Positions 23,853 through 34,820 of a stretch of DNA of 60,997 nt are shown piece after piece. The stretch spans positions 1-60,997 of the forward strand of contig REDL01000078.1 of assembly GCA_007693505.1 (NCBI GenBank), read 5' to 3'. Below the pieces are notes generated by a model, which was not told the DNA's origin, made no database searches, and saw only the letters and a list, made by a program, of their open reading frames with translations. Source of the DNA: Desulfovibrionales bacterium. Its GTDB lineage: Bacteria > Desulfobacterota > Desulfovibrionia > Desulfovibrionales > Desulfonatronaceae. The position numbers and the translations under genes are program-made. Within the stretch, counting starts at the first letter, position 1. The number at the start of each line of letters is the position of its first letter.

Positions 23853-24539
23853 TCAGTCGGTCCGCTTGTGCAAGTCATGTTTCACCAGCTTCAGGAACAG
23901 TCCGGCAAAGTGATCAAGGCCACGTTCCAGTTCACCCTGGCGACCCAGAAAGTAGTTGAAGAAGAGTGTGGCCGGAATGGCCACCAAGAGACCGACGATG
24001 GTCGTGCCCAGTGCTTCGCCCAATCCCTGGCCCACGGTCATCAGGCTGGCGGCCCGGCTCAGTTCGCCAAAGCCCTGGAAGGAATGGAAGATGCCCCACA
24101 CCGTGCCGAACAGACCCATCAGGGGCGCGGCATTGGCACAGACGCCCAGGAAAGCCAAAGGACGGAAGCTGTTGCCAGATTGGCGCCGGACCTCGTCCCG
24201 AAGGGTATGCCGCAGGCTTTCCAGGACGACCGGAGCCCGCTCTTCCTGGGACAAGCCCAGTTCTTGAAGCTCCAGGTATTCCTCGTATCCTGCCTGGGCC
24301 ACCTTGCGGGTGATGGAGTTTGGAGCCGGAGGCAGATTCAGGATGGCGGCATGGAGTTCCTTTGATTCCTGCAGGGTTTCCGTGTCATCGGCCACGATTT
24401 TCGTGAACCGGCGGTATTGAAGCAGTTTGGCAAAGACCAGCGCCCAGCACACCACGGACATGGTTGCCAAGACGATATAGACACCCTGGATGATCGCCGA
24501 GGAGCGAAGGAAAATTTGCAGGTAGGCGATCTCGGACAT
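23853..24539 (-). CDS. MotA/TolQ/ExbB proton channel family protein
   Basis: About 228 residues from an ATG at 24539 (MSEIAYLQIFLRSSAIIQGVY). One N-terminal membrane helix, a cytoplasmic loop, and two C-terminal helices with FLGVCANAAPLMGLFGTVWGI and TTIVGLLVAIPATLFFNYF are the TolQ/ExbB pattern. Such proteins convert proton motive force into work on the cell envelope, together with TolR/ExbD. No tolR/exbD gene is beside it in this window. A TTG start 20 codons upstream is possible. Confidence 0.88.
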   Translation of the reverse strand: MSEIAYLQIFLRSSAIIQGVYIVLATMSVVCWALVFAKLLQYRRFTKIVADDTETLQESKELHAAILNLPPAPNSITRKVAQAGYEEYLELQELGLSQEERAPVVLESLRHTLRDEVRRQSGNSFRPLAFLGVCANAAPLMGLFGTVWGIFHSFQGFGELSRAASLMTVGQGLGEALGTTIVGLLVAIPATLFFNYFLGRQGELERGLDHFAGLFLKLVKHDLHKRTD

Positions 24540-24680
24540 GGAGGGTGTTCTGGTGTAGAGAGTGGGCGAGGCAGTTCGTTTTGCCGAATTGCCGTCCAAT
24601 TCAGTGATGCTCTAGCGGGCAACCCTGGAGAAATCAATCAACAGGCCATGGTTACGGACGTTACGCCCAAGGAGGGCAGG

Positions 24681-26219
24681 ATGATGCAGGAACGGATACT
24701 GGTCACCGGAGCCACGGGATATATCGGCGGACGGCTGATCAAACGATTGCTGGAGCAGGGGTACGCGGTCACGGCCATGGCCCGTTCCCTGGATAAGATC
24801 GGTTGCAGGCCCTGGGCCGGGCATCCCAGAATTTTACTGGCCCAGGGCGACGTCATGGACCAGGCATCCCTGGAGCGGGCCATGACGGGCTGTTCCGCGG
24901 CCTATTATCTGGTGCACTCCATGACCCCCGGAGCCAAGGATTTTGCCCAGACCGACCGGATCGCCGCGGAAAACATGGCCCGGGCCGCTGAGGTTCAAGG
25001 GCTTGCCCAGATCATTTATCTGGGTGGCTTGGGGGAGGAGAGCGACGTCCATCTGAGCAAGCATCTGCGCTCCCGCCTGGAAGTGGCCAAGGTGCTGCGT
25101 CAGGGCAAGGTGCCCGTAACCTTTTTCCGGGCGGCCATGATCATCGGGGCGGGCAGTGCATCCTTTGAAATTTTGCGGTACCTGACCGAACGGCTGCCGG
25201 TGATGATCACTCCGCGTTGGGTACACACCGAATGCCAGCCCATCGCCGTATCCAACGTCATTGAGTACCTCGCGGGTTGCCTGGAACATCCGGAAACCTC
25301 CGGCCAGACCTACGACATTGGTGGTCCGGACGTGCTCACCTATGCCCAGATGTTCGCGCTCTACGCCGAAATCGCCGGACTGCCCAGGCGGATTCTCATC
25401 CCTGTGCCGCTGCTGACCCCGCATCTGTCCTCCCTGTGGATCAATTTTGTCACCCCGGTGCCCACGGCCTTGGCCAAACCGCTGGTGGTCGGCCTGCGCA
25501 ACAGGGTTGTCTGCACGGAGAACCGCATCCGGGAGGTCATTCCCCAGCCGCTCTTATCCTGCCGGGAAGCCATCTCCACTGCGTTGCAGAAGGTCCAGCA
25601 GCTGGACGTGGAGACCTGCTGGAGCGACGCCGGATTCCAGCCGCCCCCGGAATGGCTGGATTGCGGGGATGCCCCTTATGCCGGCGGGACGCTTCTGGGG
25701 TTGTCCTATCATATCCGGATCGCCGCCAAGCCCGAGGACGTCTGGCCGGTGGTGGCTGCCCTGGGTGGAGAAACAGGCTGGTACTACGGTGATTTTCTCT
25801 GGCAGTTGCGGGGCGTTATGGACCGCATGGTCGGAGGCGTGGGACTACGCCGCGGGCGCCGTCATCCGGCGGAGATCCGTGTCGGAGACGCCCTGGATTT
25901 CTGGCGGGTGCTCCAGCTTGAACCTGGCCGGCGGCTTCGGCTCCTGGCGGAGATGAAGGTACCCGGCGAGGCCTTGCTGGACTTTGAACTGCGACCCATC
26001 GGCCCGGACGGAGCGTATACCGAAATCATTGAGCGCTCCCGGTTCCTGCCCAAGGGGCTCTGGGGTCTGGCCTACTGGTATGCCACCTACCCCTTCCACA
26101 TCCTGATCTTCAAGGGCATGCTGGAAAAAATCGCCCATCAAACCGGACGGGCCGCCAGCCAAGCCAAGCCGCTACGATCCTCGGCCGCATCAAGTTGCGC
26201 CCTGCCCGGCGGACACTAG
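24681..26219 (+). CDS. SDR-family oxidoreductase with C-terminal DUF2867 domain
   Basis: 512 residues from the ATG at 24681, which has AAGGAGGGC just upstream. The first ~300 residues are an atypical extended SDR (VTGATGYIGGRLIKRLLEQG), and the rest (SYHIRIAAKPEDVWPVVAAL onward, with WYYGDFLWQLRGVMDRMVGG) matches DUF2867. The fused form is found in many bacteria, but the reaction is not known. Monocistronic as far as visible. Confidence 0.85.
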   Translation: MMQERILVTGATGYIGGRLIKRLLEQGYAVTAMARSLDKIGCRPWAGHPRILLAQGDVMDQASLERAMTGCSAAYYLVHSMTPGAKDFAQTDRIAAENMARAAEVQGLAQIIYLGGLGEESDVHLSKHLRSRLEVAKVLRQGKVPVTFFRAAMIIGAGSASFEILRYLTERLPVMITPRWVHTECQPIAVSNVIEYLAGCLEHPETSGQTYDIGGPDVLTYAQMFALYAEIAGLPRRILIPVPLLTPHLSSLWINFVTPVPTALAKPLVVGLRNRVVCTENRIREVIPQPLLSCREAISTALQKVQQLDVETCWSDAGFQPPPEWLDCGDAPYAGGTLLGLSYHIRIAAKPEDVWPVVAALGGETGWYYGDFLWQLRGVMDRMVGGVGLRRGRRHPAEIRVGDALDFWRVLQLEPGRRLRLLAEMKVPGEALLDFELRPIGPDGAYTEIIERSRFLPKGLWGLAYWYATYPFHILIFKGMLEKIAHQTGRAASQAKPLRSSAASSCALPGGH

Positions 26220-26314
26220 TGACGTAACCATGAGACCCTGCCAGAAAAAGCAAGAAATTGTTGTCGGTTATTTGCTAATTGGTTTTCCTGGTAACAAATA
26301 GCTGATAACTGGGT

Positions 26315-26331
26315 TGCGGGCAAAGCCCGCA
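26315..26331. terminator. Compact GC-rich hairpin downstream of the SDR-DUF2867 gene
   Basis: TGCGGGC-AAA-GCCCGCA is a perfect 7-bp stem with a three-base loop, about 95 bases after the stop. No T-run follows. The rest of 26220-26433 shows an AT-richer tract with repeated GCTGATAACTG-like words and the ribosome-binding site of the next gene. Confidence 0.35.
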
Positions 26332-26433
26332 TTAGATCATTGAATCCTGCGTCCTGATCGTAAAAACGATTGACCTCCTGAGCGAAACGGCCTAGCGCAA
26401 AATGCTTTGAACCGGACGTCATGGAGAGTGGAT

Positions 26434-27879
26434 ATGTTCATGGACGAAGACGATGTTTTTTTTTCGGACATCAAGCTGGACCCCGCGGTTTCGTATTTTT
26501 TGTATATCGGCGAGCTGAAGTCCGACTGTCTGAATCAGTTCGTCACGGAAACCCTGACCAAGATTCATGGTCAACCATTTGACTTCATTTCCATCCTGCC
26601 GGATGTGCTGGAGTCCTATCCGCACAAGAATACCCTGGTGATCAACCCCATGGCCCGCCAACTTTACCGGGCCAAGGGCCGCAAGGTCAGTTTCCGCATC
26701 GCACCCAGGGAGTTTGCCTCCCTGGTCTCCGCCTCAACCACGATCAACGACCTGGTTCGGGAACTGCTGGACCGGCAAGGTCACGTCTTCATCCATGTGT
26801 TCGAGTCGGTACCGGAATTAACCCTGGCCCTGGTTCCCGGCGTGCGCATTCTCGGTCCCAGCGGCCATATCGCCAATATCTGGAACAACAAGCTCTACCA
26901 GTTGCAGATGCTCAAGGGCACGGCGCCGCTGATCGATTACCGGGTCTGCCGGGACGCCGAGCAGATGTTGGAAACCGCTCGAGAGCTTTGGGCCCAGTGG
27001 CCGGATGGGATTTTTGTCAGCCAGCCTTACTCCGCGGCCGGTGTAAACAGTTTTTTGGCCCACAGTCAGGAGGATATCGAGAACAAGGCTGCTCATCTCA
27101 AGGGCAAGTTTTTCATCAGCCGCTATGTGCCCCATCTTGATGACCCCACGGTGCTCGGGGTGGTGGCCAATGCCACGGATGTATTCATTGGGGCCATAGC
27201 GGACCAGGAGATCCAGGACGGCAACAAGTTTCGCGGTTCAACCTTCCCCTCGGCCTTGGCAGCATCCAAACAGCAGGAATTGCGGGAAATCACGCGCAAG
27301 ATTGGGCAGGTCATGGGCCGTAGCGGCTATCGGGGGATTTTTGGCTGCGATTTTATCGTGGACGCCCAGGGCCGGATTTTTTTCGTGGAGGTCAATGCCC
27401 GCAAGCAGGGGACGACCATGGAAATGTGTTGCACCCTGGAGAACGCGTTGCCTCCGGAAACGCCCGGACTGCTGGAACTGGAATACCACGCCGTCATGCA
27501 TGACCGTTTTCCGGAGAACAACGTGGAGATCAGCGACGCCCTGAACAACATCTGTTGGCGAACCTACAATTACAAGCTGGATGAAGAGGCCGAGACCAAC
27601 CAGATCGTTCCCCTGGACGAGGACGAACGGAACCTGTTTCGACAAGTGCGGGAGGGCAGCCAGACGCACGGCGTTATTGTCGTCGAGCATGTCGGCGGCA
27701 GATTGGCCGTTCAACCCGGAACGTTTCTCGGGCGCGTGGTGGCCGTAGGGCAGACCCGAGCCCAACTCGAGAACGATATCCGTGAAGGCGTCCAGCGCCT
27801 CAAGGAATCCATCTTCGATGCCCTGAAATCTTCCAACCTTTCACCATCAGGAAAAAACGACCATGCTGACGGAAACTGA
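26434..27879 (+). CDS. ATP-grasp domain protein, putative carboxylate-amine ligase
   Basis: 481 residues from the ATG at 26434 with GGAG upstream. The second half shows the ATP-grasp fold: FISRYVPHLDDPTVLGV, GYRGIFGCDFIVDAQGRIFF, and the Mg-binding FVEVNARK near 317-324. Such enzymes join a carboxylate to an amine through an acyl phosphate. The N-terminal 130 residues match nothing I know. It overlaps the KamA-like gene by 17 bases, and an M20 peptidase follows, so a peptide- or amino-acid-conjugating pathway is likely. The substrate is unknown. Confidence 0.82.
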   Translation: MFMDEDDVFFSDIKLDPAVSYFLYIGELKSDCLNQFVTETLTKIHGQPFDFISILPDVLESYPHKNTLVINPMARQLYRAKGRKVSFRIAPREFASLVSASTTINDLVRELLDRQGHVFIHVFESVPELTLALVPGVRILGPSGHIANIWNNKLYQLQMLKGTAPLIDYRVCRDAEQMLETARELWAQWPDGIFVSQPYSAAGVNSFLAHSQEDIENKAAHLKGKFFISRYVPHLDDPTVLGVVANATDVFIGAIADQEIQDGNKFRGSTFPSALAASKQQELREITRKIGQVMGRSGYRGIFGCDFIVDAQGRIFFVEVNARKQGTTMEMCCTLENALPPETPGLLELEYHAVMHDRFPENNVEISDALNNICWRTYNYKLDEEAETNQIVPLDEDERNLFRQVREGSQTHGVIVVEHVGGRLAVQPGTFLGRVVAVGQTRAQLENDIREGVQRLKESIFDALKSSNLSPSGKNDHADGN

Positions 27880-29482
27880 TCAGGCCCAGGACATAACAAT
27901 AGCCGGGCCATTGGATGCATTCACCCAGGAACTGTTCGACGACCTCTATATCAATGAGGAGTCCGCTGCTGCGCCGGAGGAGCTTCGACTCCATGTCGCC
28001 GGCCTGCTGGAGGCTGCTGAAACAGACACTGCTGATCTGCGGCATACCGGACCCATTGTGGCCCTGTTCGCGGAGCTGCACCGGATCGCCCATGAGCTGG
28101 ACTGGAACCCGGGGCAGTTGGGTCTGGCCCGGGAGGCACTGGAAAATTTGGCCCGCAGGCATGCACGTATCGACGAACACGGCGTGACCATCGGCGGTCG
28201 GGTGGGCAAGGCCTTGCCCATTGTTCACGAGGCCAGGACCCGCATCGCCGACTACCTGGATCGGCACGCCATCGAAGCCCCCAGCGGGTTGGAAGTCTGG
28301 GACCGGATTTTAGCCAATCAGGCCAGAATCAAGCAGGCCCTGGGCATGAGCGATGTCGATTGGGACTCCTACTCCGGGCAGTTGCGCCATGCCATTGAAA
28401 ACGTGGACACGCTGGCCTCGGTGGTGGACCTGCCTCCCCAGGCCGTGGATGAGGTTCGCCGGGTCACCCAGACCTACCGGATGCGCCTGACCCCGTACTA
28501 TGCCAGCCTGATTCTCTCCGGTCACGACAATGACCCCGTTCTGCTTCAGGCCGTCCCCACCGGGGAAATGGTTGACGCCGTTGGTGAGGAAATTCCCCCG
28601 GTGGCCGCGGATCATTCCCCGGCGCGGTTGATTGATCAGTTCTACCCTCGGGTGGCGACCATCAAGGCCACGAATATGTGCGCCATGTACTGTACCCACT
28701 GCCTGCGCATCGCCCATATCGGGGCCAAGGACCGCATTTACGGTAAGGAAGCCTATGGCGAGGCCCTGGACTATATCCGGGCCAACCCGGAAATCCGGGA
28801 CGTGCTGGTCACCGGAGGGGACGCTCTGGTGCTGCCCAATGCCATGCTCCAGTGGCTGCTGGGTGAGTTGGACGGGATTGAGCATGTGCGCATGAAGCGT
28901 TTGGGCAGCAGGATTCCGGTGACCACTCCGCAGCGGGTGGATGAGGAACTGCTGGATATCCTGGAGGCCAGCAACAACCGCAAGCCGTTGCGGGTGGTCA
29001 CCCAGATCAACACGGCCCAGGAAATCACCCCGGTCTCCAAGGCCGCGTTCACGGCGATTTCCCGGCGGGTGGCCGCGGTGATGAACCAGGCCGTACTGCT
29101 CAAGGGTATCAACGACTCCAAGATCAAGATGTGGAAGCTGTGCGAGACCATCCAGGAAGCCTATGTGCGGCCTTATTACGTTTTCAACTGCAGTTATCGC
29201 AATCCCCAGTTCAGCCACTTGCGTGTTCCCGTGGCTACCGGCCAGGAGATCGTCGAGAGCATGTACGGAAACATTTCCGGGGATGCGATCCCCCGGTACA
29301 TTGCCACGGCAGGGGGCAAAATTCCCTTGCACCGGACCAACATGCTCGGCCGCAAGGAGGGCGGGCTGCGACTGCAGAAGCCCTGGAGCGGAGACCGGGT
29401 GCTCTATCCGGATGCTGATGCCCGGGAATACGGGCGAGAGGATTTTGGATTTGCCAGGTTCCGGGATATGGACGGGGCATAG
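27863..29482 (+). CDS. KamA-family radical SAM aminomutase, substrate unassigned
   Basis: 539 residues. The radical SAM cluster is C273-x3-C277-x2-C280 (NMCAMYCTHCLR), and the PLP lysine is likely K486 in ATAGGKIPLH, as in lysine 2,3-aminomutase. The first ~200 residues are longer than in typical KamA. The two aspartates that bind the lysine side chain in clostridial lysine aminomutase (D293, D330) align with S444 (in NCSY) and T482/A483, so lysine may not be the substrate. Probably a beta-amino acid former, working with the upstream ATP-grasp enzyme. Confidence 0.85.
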   Translation: MLTETDQAQDITIAGPLDAFTQELFDDLYINEESAAAPEELRLHVAGLLEAAETDTADLRHTGPIVALFAELHRIAHELDWNPGQLGLAREALENLARRHARIDEHGVTIGGRVGKALPIVHEARTRIADYLDRHAIEAPSGLEVWDRILANQARIKQALGMSDVDWDSYSGQLRHAIENVDTLASVVDLPPQAVDEVRRVTQTYRMRLTPYYASLILSGHDNDPVLLQAVPTGEMVDAVGEEIPPVAADHSPARLIDQFYPRVATIKATNMCAMYCTHCLRIAHIGAKDRIYGKEAYGEALDYIRANPEIRDVLVTGGDALVLPNAMLQWLLGELDGIEHVRMKRLGSRIPVTTPQRVDEELLDILEASNNRKPLRVVTQINTAQEITPVSKAAFTAISRRVAAVMNQAVLLKGINDSKIKMWKLCETIQEAYVRPYYVFNCSYRNPQFSHLRVPVATGQEIVESMYGNISGDAIPRYIATAGGKIPLHRTNMLGRKEGGLRLQKPWSGDRVLYPDADAREYGREDFGFARFRDMDGA

Positions 29483-29493
29483 CCGGGTCGGCC

Positions 29494-30654
29494 ATGTTTG
29501 ACCGCCTTTTTGCCCAACTGCCCACGATGGAGCCCATGGCTCTGGATCTGTTGCGTCAATTGGTGGAGATCCAGAGCGGGAGCCGCAACAAGCCTGGACT
29601 GGACCGCATGGCTCAGGCAATGTCCAAGGTTTTGGGCGAATTGATGCCGAACGTTCGGGTGCTGTCTTTTGCGGAACATGGGGACATGGTCCAGGCGTCC
29701 ACGGCCCCGTACAGCTCCGGATTCGGGGCCCGTCGTTTCGCCCTGGTGGGCCACATGGACACGGTGTTTCCTGAGGATACCGCATTCACGGCCTTTGGCC
29801 GGGATGCCGAGCGCTGCTATGGCCCGGGTGTTTACGACATGAAGGGCGGCCTGGTGGTCGGGGTGATCGCCCTGACGGCTCTTCATCACATGGGCGTGCT
29901 GGATCGGATTCCGGTCACCTTTCTCTGCAATTCCGACGAGGAGATCGGTTCGCCGGCTTCCCGGCCCTGGATCGAGGAGCAGGCCCGTGACTGGACCGCC
30001 GCCCTGGTTCTGGAAGGCGGCGGGAGAAACAGGGCCGTGGTTACGGGGCGCAAGGGCCGGATGGGTTTCCAGGCCACGGTCCAAGGACGGGCCGGACACG
30101 CCGCCAAGGGGGGGGCGAAGGCCAGCGCGATTCTGGAACTGGCGCACATGATCGTGGCCCTGGAATCCCTGAACGACGATCCGGAAATTACCGTGAATGT
30201 GGGCCGGATTGAGGGAGGGATTGGCCCGAATACCGTTCCGGATCAGGCCGAGGCCCTGGTGGATGCCCGTTTTCTTTCATCAGAGGGCCAAGCTCGCCTG
30301 GAGAAGCGCATCGCGGCTGTCTGTGCCGAATCCGTGGTTTCGGGCACAATCCGTTCCATTGCCCCCACCACGGGGCGACCGGCCATGCCCCAATCCTCCG
30401 CAAACCGGGAGCTTTTCACCCTGGCCCGCCGACAGGCTGACCGGCTGGGCTACGATCTCCCGGAAGAGTTGCGTTTCGGGGTTTCGGACGCCAATTTCAT
30501 CGCCGGATGCGGCGTCCCGGTCCTGGATGGATTGGGCCCGATGGGGGGCATGGACCATAGCGACCAGGAGTACATTCTCACAGCAAGCCTGATGGAACGC
30601 GCCGCCCTGGTGGCGTCAATCCTGCTGGACATGTCGACCATGCAGAAGGCCTGA
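29494..30654 (+). CDS. M20-family metallopeptidase (ArgE/DapE/CPG2 type)
   Basis: 386 residues with the metal-site motifs GHMDTVF, YGPGVYDMKGG, the catalytic SDEEIGS pair of Glu, and a dimerisation domain in the middle (GRAGHAAKGGAKASA). It should hydrolyse an amide bond of a small peptide or acylated amino acid. Its position 11 bases after the KamA-like gene suggests that it releases or recycles the product of the ATP-grasp ligase. No signal peptide, so cytosolic. The ribosome-binding site is weak. Confidence 0.88.
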   Translation: MFDRLFAQLPTMEPMALDLLRQLVEIQSGSRNKPGLDRMAQAMSKVLGELMPNVRVLSFAEHGDMVQASTAPYSSGFGARRFALVGHMDTVFPEDTAFTAFGRDAERCYGPGVYDMKGGLVVGVIALTALHHMGVLDRIPVTFLCNSDEEIGSPASRPWIEEQARDWTAALVLEGGGRNRAVVTGRKGRMGFQATVQGRAGHAAKGGAKASAILELAHMIVALESLNDDPEITVNVGRIEGGIGPNTVPDQAEALVDARFLSSEGQARLEKRIAAVCAESVVSGTIRSIAPTTGRPAMPQSSANRELFTLARRQADRLGYDLPEELRFGVSDANFIAGCGVPVLDGLGPMGGMDHSDQEYILTASLMERAALVASILLDMSTMQKA

Positions 30655-30790
30655 CTGTGCCGGAGGCAATGGGGCAACATTATAGTTTGACATCTCCTCC
30701 CTCCTTCGGCATAGCAATTACGTATACACTGTGTGAGGTTGGCGTATTCTCCCGTTTCCTACAACACATTATGATGATGGAGGTGTGATG

Positions 30791-31750
30791 ATGTTTGGTA
30801 AAAAGTGGTTCATCGCCGTAGCGATGATGCTCGGGTTGGCGATGTCCGCGCCGCAGGCCATGGCCAAGCAGGACATCCTGTTTGGTGGCGCGTCCATTAC
30901 AGGGGTCTACTACCAGGTTGCCCTGCAGATCAGCAACATGATGAACAAGCATATGGGCGCGGAGTACAACTTCATCGGGCGACCCACCGGTGGTTCGGTG
31001 TTCAACATCAATGCCCTGGACCGGGGGGCGTTTGACTTTGCCGTGGCCCAGTCCGACAGAAATTTTCAGGCATATCACGGCACCGCCGATTGGGAAGGCA
31101 GGCCGATTTCAGGGCTACGCAGCGTATTCAGCATGCACCCCGAGACCGTCATGCTGGTTACCCGAAAGGACACGGGGATCACCACTGTTGACGGCTTGCG
31201 GGGCAAGCGGGTGAATATCGGCAATCCCGGTTCCGGACAGCGCGGCAACGCCGAGGACGTGCTGCGGTTGTACGGTCTGGACTTCAATACGGATTTCCGG
31301 GCCGAGGCGCTGCAGCAGCATGAAGCTTCCCGCGCCCTGGTGGACCGGAACATTGACGCATTTTTCTACACCGTGGGCAATCCCAGCGCGGCCATCGAGG
31401 AGCCGGCCCAGTCCGTGGACCTGGACATGGTTCCCTTGAATTCTGACGCCATCAGGGCGTTTGTGGACGAACATCCCTACTATATCATGACCAGCATCCC
31501 GTCCGGCACCTACCGGGGCATTGACCGGGACATTGAAACCTTTGCCGTGACCGCCACCGTGGTCACCAATGAGTCCGTCTCGGAGCAGGTGGTCTATGAC
31601 ATGGTCAAGACCGTCTTTGAAAACCTGGACGAGTTGCGCGCCTCGCATGCCGCGTTCCGGTATCTGAATCCCGAGGAAATGCTCCAAGGGCTTTCCGCTC
31701 CGCTGCACCCTGGAGCCGAGCGATTCTTCAAGGAACAGGGCTGGATCTAG
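30791..31750 (+). CDS. TAXI-family TRAP transporter solute-binding protein
   Basis: 319 residues from an ATG at 30791 seven bases after GGAGG (ATGs at 30785-30788 in frame are alternatives). A signal peptide ends near QAMA, followed by KQDILFGGASITGVYYQVAL, typical of the TAXI subfamily (TRAP-associated extracytoplasmic Immunogenic). It binds a ligand, often a glutamate-like compound or organic acid, in the periplasm and passes it to the membrane partner encoded downstream. A hairpin separates the two genes. Confidence 0.92.
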   Translation: MFGKKWFIAVAMMLGLAMSAPQAMAKQDILFGGASITGVYYQVALQISNMMNKHMGAEYNFIGRPTGGSVFNINALDRGAFDFAVAQSDRNFQAYHGTADWEGRPISGLRSVFSMHPETVMLVTRKDTGITTVDGLRGKRVNIGNPGSGQRGNAEDVLRLYGLDFNTDFRAEALQQHEASRALVDRNIDAFFYTVGNPSAAIEEPAQSVDLDMVPLNSDAIRAFVDEHPYYIMTSIPSGTYRGIDRDIETFAVTATVVTNESVSEQVVYDMVKTVFENLDELRASHAAFRYLNPEEMLQGLSAPLHPGAERFFKEQGWI

Positions 31751-31766
31751 CCTGGACCTCTTTGCT

Positions 31767-31792
31767 CAGGGGCGGTTTACGAACCGCCCCTG
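31767..31792 (+). terminator. Hairpin between TAXI-binding protein and TRAP permease genes
   Basis: CAGGGGCGGTT (31767-31777) pairs perfectly with AACCGCCCCTG (31782-31792) around a TACG tetraloop and is followed by CCTGTTTCC. A strong stem with a weak T-run here would let most transcripts stop after the binding protein gene, giving more binding protein than permease. Confidence 0.7.
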
Positions 31793-31837
31793 CCTGTTTC
31801 CTGTCCCGTATTCCTTTTCCATCTCCAAAGGCTCGCC

Positions 31838-34078
31838 ATGACCGCTCAGGACCAAACCGTCGCACAACCGGGTGCCCCCCACGTCGTGGAGCCCGGCAAG
31901 GATCAGTCCCGCAAGGAATCCAGGGTCCGTTCCGCCGAAGACATGGTGGCCATGGTCGAGGCCGGAGCCCGTGAGCCCAAACATCCCGTTGCCGCCTGGC
32001 TGATCACGCTGTTGTGCCTGGGCTGGTCCGGTTTTCAGCTCTACCTGGCCTACGAGCCGATGAATTCCCACATCGCCCGGGCCTGGCATCTGGGGTTTGC
32101 CATCTGTCTCGCTTTTTTGGCCTACCCGGCCTACAAGCAGTACAGTCCGCCGATGTGGGTCACCTGGACCCAGAAGGTCATTCCCAGCTTTGCCCGGCGA
32201 TCCATTCGAACGTACATCCCGATATACGACTTCATGCTTGCCATACTGGCCACGGCCGGAGCCCTGTATATCTGGTGGGACTATGGCGGGATCATCAACC
32301 GGATGGGATTGCCCTCGCAACTGGACATCTGGATGGGCGTGATCCTCATCGTGCTGCTGTTGGAAGCGGCCCGGCGCGCCCTGGGCCCGGCCCTGGCCAT
32401 TCTGGCCGGGATCTTTCTGCTCTACACCATGATCGGCCCCCACCTGCCCGCGTTGCTGCGGCATCGCGGCGTGCCCCTGGATTTCGTGATCAGTGACATG
32501 TACCTGACCACGACGGGCATTTTCGGTGTTCCGCTGGGGGTTGCCACGGACTTCGTATTTTTGTTCGTCCTGTTCGGCGCATTGCTGGATCGGGCCGGGG
32601 GCGGAAAATATTTTATCGATGTGGCCTTTTCAGCCCTGGGCACCTTCCGGGGCGGCCCGGCCAAGGCAGCGGTCATGGCTTCCGGGCTGACCGGTCTGGT
32701 TTCCGGCTCTTCCATCGCCAATACCGTAACCACCGGCACCTTCACCATCCCGCTGATGAAGAAGGTCGGCTTTCCGGCGCACAAATCCGCGGCCGTGGAG
32801 GTGGCCTCGTCGGTCAATGGGCAGTTGATGCCCCCGATCATGGGGGCGGCCGCGTTCATCATGGCGGAGATCATTGGCATCCCCTATCTGGACGTGGTCC
32901 GGGCGGCCCTCTTTCCAGCGCTGATTTCCTATCTGGCCCTGCTCTATATCGTTCATCTGGAATCCTTGAAAATGGGCATCAAGGCCCTGCCTCGCAAGGA
33001 GCTGCCCCAGTTCGGCAAGACCGTGCTCCGGGGCTGTCATTTTATCATCCCCCTGGGCGTGCTGATTTTCTACCTGGTCGTCCTGCGGCGCTCCCCCATT
33101 GCCTCGGCTTTGCACGCCATTGAGAGCCTGATCGTGATCATGCTCGTCCAGCGTCCGATCATCGCCTTTCTCTCCCTGGGCATGCACAGACGGGCCGGGA
33201 CCCTGGATCCGAACATCGACCTGAAGCGCTTCCTGCTCATCGCCACCTGGCAGGGCATTCACGACGTATGGAGCGGGTTGATCATGGGCGCGCGGAACAT
33301 GATTTCCGTAGGCGTGGCCACGGCCACCGCCGGGATCATCGTCGGCGTGGTGACCATCACCGGGCTGGTGGGCCGGTTCATCACCATCATCGCCACCCTG
33401 TCCATGGGCAATATCGCCCTGATGCTGATATTCACGGCGATCACCAGCCTGATCCTGGGCATGGGCATGCCCACCACGGCCAACTACATCATCATGGCCA
33501 CCCTGACCGCGCCGGTGATCATCCAGCTGGGCGGTGACGCCGGGCTGGTCTTTCCGCTGATCGCGGCCCATCTGTTCGTCTTCTATTTCGGCATTCTGGC
33601 CGACGTGACTCCGCCGGTGGGCTTGGCGGCCTATGCCGGGGCGGCCATAGCCCGCACGGACCCGATCAAGACCGGCGTACAGGGGTTCGCCTACAGCTTG
33701 CGTACAGGAATTCTGCCGTTCATCTTTCTGTTCAATACGGACCTGCTGATGATCTCCGGCGTGACCGAGGCCGGGAAGGTGATCTGGCTGGAGGACCCCT
33801 GGCATCTGACCTGGGTCTTCTTTTCCGGTCTGATTGCCATGTTTGCCTTTGCCTCGGCCCTTCAGGGCTGGCTGGTCACGCGTTGCAACTGGCTGGAGCG
33901 GTTGTACCTGCTGGCTGTTTGCGCCACCACCTTCCGACCCGGCGTGTTCGCGGCCTATCTGCCCTTTGATCGTCTGGGCATGCAGATCCTTGGCGTGGCC
34001 ATGTATTTTGCCCTGTTTGCTTGGCAGATGTACGGGTCAAAGCGGGCGGGGGGCGATGCCGCTCCGTCCACGGCATGA
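31838..34078 (+). CDS. TRAP transporter fused permease (4TM/12TM)
   Basis: 746 residues, with DctQ-like membrane helices in the first ~180 residues fused to a DctM-like permease (for example DRAGGGKYFIDVAFSALGTF, GMGMPTTANYIIMATLTAP). This fused form goes with TAXI-type binding proteins. It imports a solute using the sodium or proton gradient. Located between the TAXI gene and a UspA gene, probably one operon with both. Confidence 0.93.
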   Translation: MTAQDQTVAQPGAPHVVEPGKDQSRKESRVRSAEDMVAMVEAGAREPKHPVAAWLITLLCLGWSGFQLYLAYEPMNSHIARAWHLGFAICLAFLAYPAYKQYSPPMWVTWTQKVIPSFARRSIRTYIPIYDFMLAILATAGALYIWWDYGGIINRMGLPSQLDIWMGVILIVLLLEAARRALGPALAILAGIFLLYTMIGPHLPALLRHRGVPLDFVISDMYLTTTGIFGVPLGVATDFVFLFVLFGALLDRAGGGKYFIDVAFSALGTFRGGPAKAAVMASGLTGLVSGSSIANTVTTGTFTIPLMKKVGFPAHKSAAVEVASSVNGQLMPPIMGAAAFIMAEIIGIPYLDVVRAALFPALISYLALLYIVHLESLKMGIKALPRKELPQFGKTVLRGCHFIIPLGVLIFYLVVLRRSPIASALHAIESLIVIMLVQRPIIAFLSLGMHRRAGTLDPNIDLKRFLLIATWQGIHDVWSGLIMGARNMISVGVATATAGIIVGVVTITGLVGRFITIIATLSMGNIALMLIFTAITSLILGMGMPTTANYIIMATLTAPVIIQLGGDAGLVFPLIAAHLFVFYFGILADVTPPVGLAAYAGAAIARTDPIKTGVQGFAYSLRTGILPFIFLFNTDLLMISGVTEAGKVIWLEDPWHLTWVFFSGLIAMFAFASALQGWLVTRCNWLERLYLLAVCATTFRPGVFAAYLPFDRLGMQILGVAMYFALFAWQMYGSKRAGGDAAPSTA

Positions 34079-34181
34079 CAGCTGCGTCCATCCCCTCAGA
34101 ATGTGCTTGTCAATGATGTTCCGAATGCGTTCAACATGATTTTCGGCCCCCTTGAATTCCAACGTCGATCACGGAGTCGCC

Positions 34182-34634
34182 ATGTACAAACGGATACTTG
34201 TTCCCATTGACCTTCAGGAGGGTGAGCGTACCCGGACGATGAGTCTGCAGCACGCCGTCGATCTGTGCCGGCTCTACAATGCAAAGCTGTTCGCCTTGAC
34301 CGTTGTGCCGGACATGGGCATGCCCATCGTGGCCGACTATTTCCCGTCCGATGCCGGAGACAAGATCGTGGCCGATGCGGAAAAACTTCTGCATGAACTG
34401 GTGGATGTGCATATCCCGGAGGACATCGACGTCCAGCATCTCGTGGCCCAAGGTTCCATTTATCGTCGGATTCTGCGCATGGCTGAAAAGGTCGAAGCCG
34501 ACCTGATCATCATCCCCGCCCATCGCATGAAACTGCAGGACTACCTGCTGGGCACGAACACCTCCAAGGTTGTCCGCCACGCGACATGTTCCGTTTTTGT
34601 CCTGCGCTGTGATCGGCACCCTTGTCCGGAGTAG
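34182..34634 (+). CDS. Universal stress protein, UspA family
   Basis: 150 residues starting MYKRILVPIDLQEGERTRTM, with the C-terminal TNTSKVVRHATCSVFVLR that forms the nucleotide-binding end of UspA proteins. TRAP transporter operons often include a UspA gene of this kind (TeaD-like), where it modulates transport. GGAG precedes the ATG. A very strong hairpin follows the stop. Confidence 0.92.
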   Translation: MYKRILVPIDLQEGERTRTMSLQHAVDLCRLYNAKLFALTVVPDMGMPIVADYFPSDAGDKIVADAEKLLHELVDVHIPEDIDVQHLVAQGSIYRRILRMAEKVEADLIIIPAHRMKLQDYLLGTNTSKVVRHATCSVFVLRCDRHPCPE

Positions 34635-34678
34635 ATGCGAATATTCCGGTATCTGCCGATAAGCACATTGTTTTTCAG

Positions 34679-34734
34679 CCCTGAAACGCCAGAGCGCCTT
34701 CTCCCTGGGGAGAAGGCGCTCTGGCGTTTCAGGG
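34679..34734. terminator. 56-bp perfect palindrome between convergent genes
   Basis: Arms of 27 bp (34679-34705 and 34708-34734, beginning CCCTGAAACGCCAGAGCGCC) pair without a mismatch around TG. It lies between the uspA gene on the plus strand and the dodecin gene on the minus strand, so it may end transcription from both sides. The T-run after it is poor, and the stem is longer than most terminators. Confidence 0.7.
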
Positions 34735-34820
34735 AGAAGCCGTTTTGGATTATTTTGGTTGCAAACTGGTAATTTCGTTCAGATTTTATGGTGAGCCATC
34801 GGTGTCCGGCTCACTTGCGG

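Follow-up and report, generated by a model that had tools for sequence, protein, structure and literature searches.

In this study, we analysed a 60,997-nucleotide stretch of DNA from a Desulfovibrionales bacterium (GenBank assembly GCA_007693505.1, contig REDL01000078.1), hereafter the window, and found that it carries a real and conserved set of three genes that is unnamed as far as our searches show. The genes, all on the forward strand, are LIG (26434..27879, stop codon included), coding for an ATP-grasp carboxylate-amine ligase of 481 residues; KAM (27863..29482), coding for a long-form KamA-family aminomutase of 539 residues that depends on radical S-adenosylmethionine (SAM) and pyridoxal phosphate (PLP); and M20 (29494..30654), coding for a di-metal amide hydrolase of the carboxypeptidase G2 type with 386 residues. 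LIG and KAM overlap by 17 bases (27863-27879), and 11 bases (29483-29493) lie between KAM and M20. A preliminary description of this DNA had placed a ligase, a KamA-type aminomutase and an M20 peptidase here with this overlap and spacing, and both the coordinates and the family scores given below agree with it. It had also known of no named pathway with this trio. In line with this, our literature search, which is weak and covers subscription journals poorly, returned no account of the gene set among the matches listed. We propose, at a probability of about 0.42, that the three proteins form one pathway making and recycling a compatible solute, an amide whose beta-amino acid is probably beta-glutamate.

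LIG and KAM occur together across the class of the host. Among the 297 genomes of this class that were searched, 38 carry a strong LIG (over 225 bits) and at least 34 a strong long-form KAM (over 500 bits, or two pieces making up most of the protein; E up to 1e-60, best 4 candidates per genome), and all 34 are among the 38. By their coordinates, the two genes are neighbours on one contig in each of these 34 genomes, with LIG of G214 and KAM of G255 each split over two contigs. This co-occurrence is more than chance. The four LIG genomes in which no KAM was matched at these settings are G264, with a fragment that lies at the end of a contig, together with G007, G010 and G016. The preliminary description had staked its proposal on the conservation of the three-gene order, and this order holds in 14 of the 17 named loci, which were retrieved with patterns from the window's own protein, as well as in 16 of the 20 fetched regions; the two counts are not independent, since loci and regions share genomes. 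As for the others, L042, L052 and L074 are cut, the first two by contig ends, L051 and L073 lack M20, and L064 and L069 have LIG only. Two of the 16 ordered regions depart from three separate intact frames, as KAM lies over two frames in L063 and LIG is fused to the aminomutase in L075. The named relatives of LIG include proteins of Desulfonatronum (84 and 82% identity), Desulfomicrobium, Desulfonatronospira and Desulfonatronovibrio, and the LIG of the window groups with a Desulfonatronum locus in the LIG tree. In a draw of 395 genomes across the phylum, LIG was found in eight, namely the host genome, three others of its order and four more; loci outside the class of the host come from such genome samples. 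The carriers of the set are mostly sulfate-reducing bacteria of saline habitats.

Two further observations concern single loci. In G049, a two-contig genome, KAM is spread over two reading frames (L063:6511-8105) next to LIG and M20 genes that look intact, which reflects either decay or a sequencing error. The LIG-KAM pair of L051 lies on a contig labelled Candidatus Brocadiaceae (Planctomycetota; genome G675). LIG was found in none of the 198 other genomes drawn from that phylum (199 with G675; E up to 1e-15, best 8 candidates per genome), so this contig may have been transferred or mis-binned.

KAM belongs to the KamA family (NCBIfam TIGR00238, 227.6 bits, cut-off 199.2) and falls just below the cut-off of Pfam Radical_SAM (25.9 of 29.5 bits). 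Its predicted structure (predicted local distance difference test, pLDDT, 88.8) superposes on lysine 2,3-aminomutase over residues 150-510 (2a5h, Z 43.3, root-mean-square deviation, rmsd, 1.9 over 335 residues). The roughly 150 residues before this part are mostly helical in the model, and they yielded no match in PDB sequences at E up to 1 and none in Pfam. The CxxxCxxC motif (C273/C277/C280), R282, Q409 and K486 are retained; we take the cysteines to be the cluster ligands, R282 the carboxylate-binding arginine and K486 the PLP lysine. The side-chain pocket is changed. D293 and D330, presumably the aspartates that hold the lysine side chain in lysine 2,3-aminomutase, correspond to S444 and T482 of KAM. 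The D293 position is Ser in 28 of 28 long-form rows and the D330 position is Thr in 22 and Ala in 6, while three AblA rows (L082-L084) retain Asp at both; the long-form loop also has one residue more than the short-form and AblA rows. The NCBIfam model with the highest score is that of glutamate 2,3-aminomutase (TIGR04368, 334 bits), ahead of the lysine model (TIGR03820, 277.6 bits). Moreover, R446 and R478 are invariant in the 28 long-form rows, whereas these columns hold a gap and Thr in the three AblA rows and Lys and Thr in the single short-form row. This pattern suggests that R446 or R478 may bind a side-chain carboxylate.

Additional KamA-type matches of the host genome lie outside the operon, on contigs C48, C111, C36 and C7. 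In loci of the Desulfonatronospira and Desulfonatronovibrio type, a second, divergent KamA-like gene with 26-29% identity to KAM stands beside the trio (L043:124-1425, L044:6376-7503, L045:189-1337, L066:10235-11557 and L067:5972-7180). The one of L066 (P0013) exceeds the TIGR00238 cut-off, and the C7 match of the host (G000:C7) scores similarly to these genes.

In six genomes of other classes (G353, G428, G883, G886, G887 and G889), the slot between LIG and M20 is filled by an aminomutase that differs from KAM and is shorter. G353 is the sole LIG genome of three in its own class. LIG was found in 8 of the 55 genomes in the class of G428, with the short form in G428, G883, G886, G887 and G889 and the long form in G880 and G881, which are probably L053 and L052 again; the eighth is G879. 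LIG and the short aminomutase form a single open frame in G428 (926 codons) and G889 (934 codons). The six short proteins score 605-633 bits against the glutamate model TIGR04368 vs 439-455 bits against the lysine model, and they have Lys at the D293 position (6/6) and Thr at the D330 position. In the midpoint-rooted LIG tree, the two short-form loci included (L072 and L075) form a starred clade that branches at an open fork among the long-KAM loci. In the simplest reading, both aminomutase subfamilies perform the same role, next to a ligase and a hydrolase that are homologous between the loci. The resemblance of the short form to glutamate 2,3-aminomutase is the best substrate clue for both.

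LIG reaches the curated cut-off of Pfam ATP-grasp_3 (PF02655, 25.6 vs 23.2 bits), and its AlphaFold model (pLDDT 90.5) has the ATP-grasp fold. Its fold matches, which include PurK, PurT, biotin carboxylase and PylC, are nearly tied at Z about 25-26 (3k5h_B, Z 26.4, rmsd 4.0 over 355 residues; PylC structures 4ffr, Z 25.2, and 4ffl, Z 24.6), so the fold fixes no substrate; a family missing from these lists is not thereby absent. By sequence, the closest solved protein is the amino-acid ligase BesA (8yi6, E 1.3e-07), with a similarity that spans only about 94 residues. We rejected membership of LIG in the BesA family, as its score of 29.3 bits against NF042917 is far under the cut-off of 750. 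Matches to a model named biotin carboxylase, to PurT and to the amino-acid ligase LdmS are likewise weak. A PYSAAG-type loop, K153, D237 and a QGTT motif are kept, small changes aside, in 30 of 33 aligned LIG rows. The proteins of G007, G010 and G016, three genomes of one genus in which KAM was not found, are without all four, indicating that LIG is altered where KAM is missing. In two of these genomes, G016 (L064) and G010 (L069), LIG is followed by a different open reading frame (ORF) with a radical-SAM-like CxxxCxxC stretch, as read by eye; the locus of G007 is L059. On plasmids, LIG had no match in 72,556 records at E up to 1e-5.

The hydrolase is a clear member of Pfam Peptidase_M20 (90.6 bits, cut-off 24.6) and also reaches M20_dimer. 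Its closest solved relative is carboxypeptidase G2 (1cg2, profile E 6.2e-62). Seven residues, H87, D89, D115, E149, E150, E174 and H355, are invariant in 27 of 27 rows, and we take them to be the metal ligands and the catalytic Glu. Equally invariant are H202, N246, R259 and R295, which we mapped by hand to H229, N275, R288 and R324 of carboxypeptidase G2; together with K208, these are presumably the substrate residues of that enzyme. Such carboxypeptidase G2-like residues suggest that the substrate of M20 may be an amide next to a free carboxylate.

As the preliminary description had noted, a TAXI-type tripartite ATP-independent periplasmic (TRAP) importer and a UspA-type protein lie 3' of the trio on the same strand. 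The genes code for a TAXI-family solute-binding protein (30785..31750; TIGR02122, 309.9 bits), a fused TRAP permease (31838..34078; TIGR02123, 659.2 bits) and a UspA-type stress protein, Usp (34152..34634; Pfam Usp, 90 bits). The TAXI gene may start at GTG 30785 or at either of the two ATG codons after it. The listed start of Usp is a TTG codon, Met 11 (34182) being the likelier one. TAXI and TRAP genes are present in 12 of the 16 fetched trio regions, in many cases oriented divergently to the three genes, and in L072 at a distance of 4 kb. A TRAP permease also adjoins TAXI in L039, L041, L049, L050 and L085, and Usp follows the permease in L039, L041, L070, L071 and L085. In all 17 trio-linked TAXI proteins (the window and 16 loci), a Tyr, a Gln and a Glu aligned with glutamate-binding residues are kept, the second Tyr being Phe in two of them. 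The residues were mapped by hand through an alignment with TtGluBP, using the determinants of VcGluP and TtGluBP given in the available text of PMC11574862. According to this paper and its reference list, TRAP importers pair with Usp proteins in the case of VcGluP and in that of the ectoine importer TeaABC, whose partner is TeaD (PMC11574862).

The distribution of the set hints at a link with salt. Desulfonatronum, Desulfonatronospira and Desulfonatronovibrio are soda-lake genera, and the genera that hold the genes include cultured members. The Desulfonatronum-like host genome (G000; 3.94 Mb, completeness 98.5%, with the window as contig C68) has an ablA-ablB pair, for Nepsilon-acetyl-beta-lysine synthesis, at G000:C48:8296-10483, both genes scoring over their cut-offs. 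Its sole ablB match (E up to 1e-40) is C48:8296-9099, which adjoins ablA and is separate from the operon of the window. Across the class of the host, ablB is present in 21 of the 34 genomes with long KAM, against 48 of the remaining 263 (Fisher p 2.8e-7, ignoring kinship), and in 8 of 11 long-KAM genera vs 9 of 42 others (p 0.0025, genera counted by hand). A salt role of the operon is supported indirectly by the taxa, by this association and by the importer with its Usp. According to PMC1224877, beta-amino acids are well suited as compatible solutes, since proteins do not incorporate them and they undergo little turnover.

In the pathway that we propose, KAM would move the amino group from C2 to C3 of an alpha-amino acid, most likely making beta-glutamate from L-glutamate. 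At the expense of ATP, LIG would then form an amide between this beta-amino acid and a second molecule, either an amine or an amino acid, and M20 would hydrolyse this amide once the product is unwanted. The TAXI-TRAP importer may supply glutamate or retrieve product that has leaked out, perhaps tuned by Usp. In sulfate reducers of haloalkaline and marine habitats, the product would serve as a compatible solute that is inert to metabolism, with a pathway running beside that of Nepsilon-acetyl-beta-lysine, which many of the same genomes carry. We favour this reading because of the co-occurrence and order of the genes, the fusion, the swap of aminomutases in one slot, TIGR04368 as the best model, the carboxypeptidase G2-like M20, the glutamate-type TAXI protein, the altered LIG where KAM is missing, and the taxa with their ablB association. 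From this evidence we infer the substrate, its partner, the order of the reactions and the physiological role. The preliminary description had suggested that the set makes and breaks a peptide or conjugate containing a beta-amino acid, for instance a compatible solute. The making and breaking is borne out to the extent that fusion, order and families fit one beta-amino-acid-amide pathway; the solute itself stays a more tentative part, drawn from the taxa, the ablB association and the TAXI-TRAP-Usp genes.

Several findings weigh against this proposal. KAM is far under the TIGR04368 cut-off, at 334 of 650 bits, and the six short forms also fall below 650, for which reason they are not called glutamate 2,3-aminomutase members. 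In glutamate 2,3-aminomutase, Lys replaces D293 and Asn replaces D330, whereas long-form KAM has Ser, not Lys, at the former position and Thr at the latter in the window. Having missed both the cut-off and these two specificity residues, KAM was rejected as a formal member of that family. The assignment of R446 or R478 comes from an alignment rather than from a docked structure. The nearest named NCBIfam models of LIG are all weak (19-34 bits), the top one being that named biotin carboxylase. For M20, the best NCBIfam model is an unspecific hydrolase (264.8 of 357 bits) and the second the glutamate carboxypeptidase PRK06133 (224.2 of 349 bits), both below cut-off; in addition, the residue aligned by hand with K208 of carboxypeptidase G2 is not conserved, an invariant R186 lying nearby. 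The LIG-KAM pairs of L051 and L073 show no M20 in the 4-6 kb seen downstream. No TAXI-TRAP genes were seen in 4 of the 16 fetched regions (L066, L067, L068 and L075, with little sequence past M20 in L067 and L075), and in the named set four of the 14 trio loci show TAXI (L039, L041, L049 and L050) and none of the other ten does, several of which are short. The ablB association accounts for phylogeny only by counting genera. Lastly, the Gln determinant is common in the TAXI family, at 54% of the alignment in the available text of PMC11574862.

The order of the first two steps may be reversed. LIG might form a gamma-glutamyl-like conjugate on which KAM then moves the amino group next to a neutral side chain, with M20 later freeing the parts. 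LIG is the first gene, its nearest solved ligase by sequence, BesA, reportedly forms a gamma-glutamyl bond, and the pocket of all long-KAM rows, with Ser in place of one side-chain aspartate and Thr or Ala in place of the other, would suit a neutral side chain. However, the short aminomutases of the same slot have Lys there, as expected for a free carboxylate, and the BesA similarity covers only a small part of LIG. We consider this order unlikely. Still less probable is a pathway for a signal, a cofactor or the modification of a protein, comparable to PylB-PylC or EpmB-EpmA, in place of a bulk solute. The fold matches of LIG include PylC, an ATP-grasp ligase whose partner is the radical-SAM mutase PylB, but a dedicated M20 and an importer in many loci fit a small recyclable molecule better.

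A catabolic set, with uptake of an amide by the importer, its cleavage by M20, KAM feeding amino-acid fermentation and LIG confined to salvage, would agree with the importer genes near the trio in most fetched regions; KamA enzymes also act in lysine fermentation. Yet an ATP-spending ligase that accompanies KAM in 34 of 34 genomes, and is fused to the aminomutase in two of the six short-form genomes, argues for synthesis, and no degradation gene recurs widely in a crude clustering of neighbours, which antisense ORFs blur. We hold such a set to be very unlikely. That KAM is a plain lysine 2,3-aminomutase, serving lysine breakdown or Nepsilon-acetyl-beta-lysine, is scarcely credible, and we rejected it. 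Its model does have the lysine 2,3-aminomutase fold, but both side-chain aspartates are replaced, its score against the lysine model is well under the cut-off of 525.4 bits, and a true ablA (744 bits), with ablB next to it, lies on C48 of the host genome. The preliminary description had named a plain lysine enzyme as an outcome that would defeat its proposal, and the aminomutase proved to be something else.

The proposed amide pathway falls among known beta-amino-acid solute and dipeptide pathways and is not categorically new. The carnosine system of animals comes close to it: the operon would work much as carnosine synthase and carnosinase do, with KAM supplying the beta-amino acid. Carnosinase CN1 is taken to be an M20 enzyme, and the M20 alignment has a weak profile match to beta-Ala-His dipeptidase (3dlj, E 7.7e-07). 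In the available text of PMC3407494, the ATP-grasp ligase ATPGD1/CARNS forms a beta-amino-acid amide that the dipeptidase cleaves. Unlike the set of the window, this system has no aminomutase, and the M20 of the window is nearest to carboxypeptidase G2, not to carnosinase. A bolder version of our proposal, which we regard as possible but doubtful, is a carnosine-like cycle of bacteria that includes an aminomutase of its own. It would comprise an undescribed class of solutes, beta-glutamate dipeptides or amides, made by LIG and KAM and recycled by M20 in sulfate reducers of saline habitats and soda lakes, with two KamA subfamilies of different active-site solutions swapped in one slot. To our knowledge, little is known about the chemistry of salt balance in sulfate reducers of soda lakes and marine sediments. 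If correct, the proposal predicts a new beta-amino-acid metabolite, a ligase able to form bonds to beta-amino acids, and a new aminomutase specificity for which one slot offers two distinct active-site solutions.

Other known systems share single features with the set. In the synthesis of pyrrolysine, which is encoded genetically, the radical-SAM mutase PylB rearranges an amino acid and the ATP-grasp enzyme PylC couples it. LIG matches PylC in fold, whereas PylB is not a KamA protein and there is no M20. BesA, an L-propargylglycine-L-glutamate ligase, is near in sequence over its short aligned part only. In the ablA-ablB system, a KamA aminomutase also feeds a beta-amino-acid compatible solute; it differs in its lysine substrate, in having an acetyltransferase instead of an ATP-grasp ligase and in being described, in the available part of the source, as a two-gene operon without a hydrolase (PMC1224877). 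According to PMC9337991, Na+ riboswitches control genes that include eam, the glutamate 2,3-aminomutase gene for beta-glutamate. Its model is the best one for both KAM and the short same-slot forms; the long form is set apart by its score below cut-off, by Ser and one extra residue where eam has Lys, by about 110-120 extra N-terminal residues and by other operon partners.

Plasmids offered a further parallel. Among the best 20 of 128 plasmid records with a KamA match, the neighbourhoods of four were inspected. On a Rhizobium ruizarguesonis plasmid (L107:6539-9146), an ATP-grasp gene directly precedes a KamA gene, as in the window. However, its ligase is of a PRK02186-like subfamily that matches LIG weakly by profile, and its incomplete gene list contains no M20; the pair was rejected as the same system because the ligase family differs. 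A small gene of unknown function follows the KamA gene there. In the KamA stretches of Bradyrhizobium and Deinococcus plasmids, whose gene tables are incomplete, no ATP-grasp gene is listed beside KamA; the fourth record, from Acetoanaerobium, is unannotated at this place.

With regard to the DNA around the trio, no Rfam family, riboswitches among them, matched at its gathering score within the window, and promoter and terminator scans of 26100-34800 gave counts not clearly above those of shuffled sequences (2 vs 3.3 and 10 vs 7.7). Large antisense ORFs that run across the trio genes, such as 28310-29785 on the reverse strand, were taken as GC artefacts. Between the TAXI gene and the TRAP permease, a strong hairpin of 11 pairs (31767-31792) perhaps limits the expression of the permease relative to the binding protein. 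Just 5' of LIG, an ORF (24417-26219) codes for an NAD-binding domain and DUF2867, with a listed TTG start that is probably too early; a similar gene also precedes LIG in L040 and L070.

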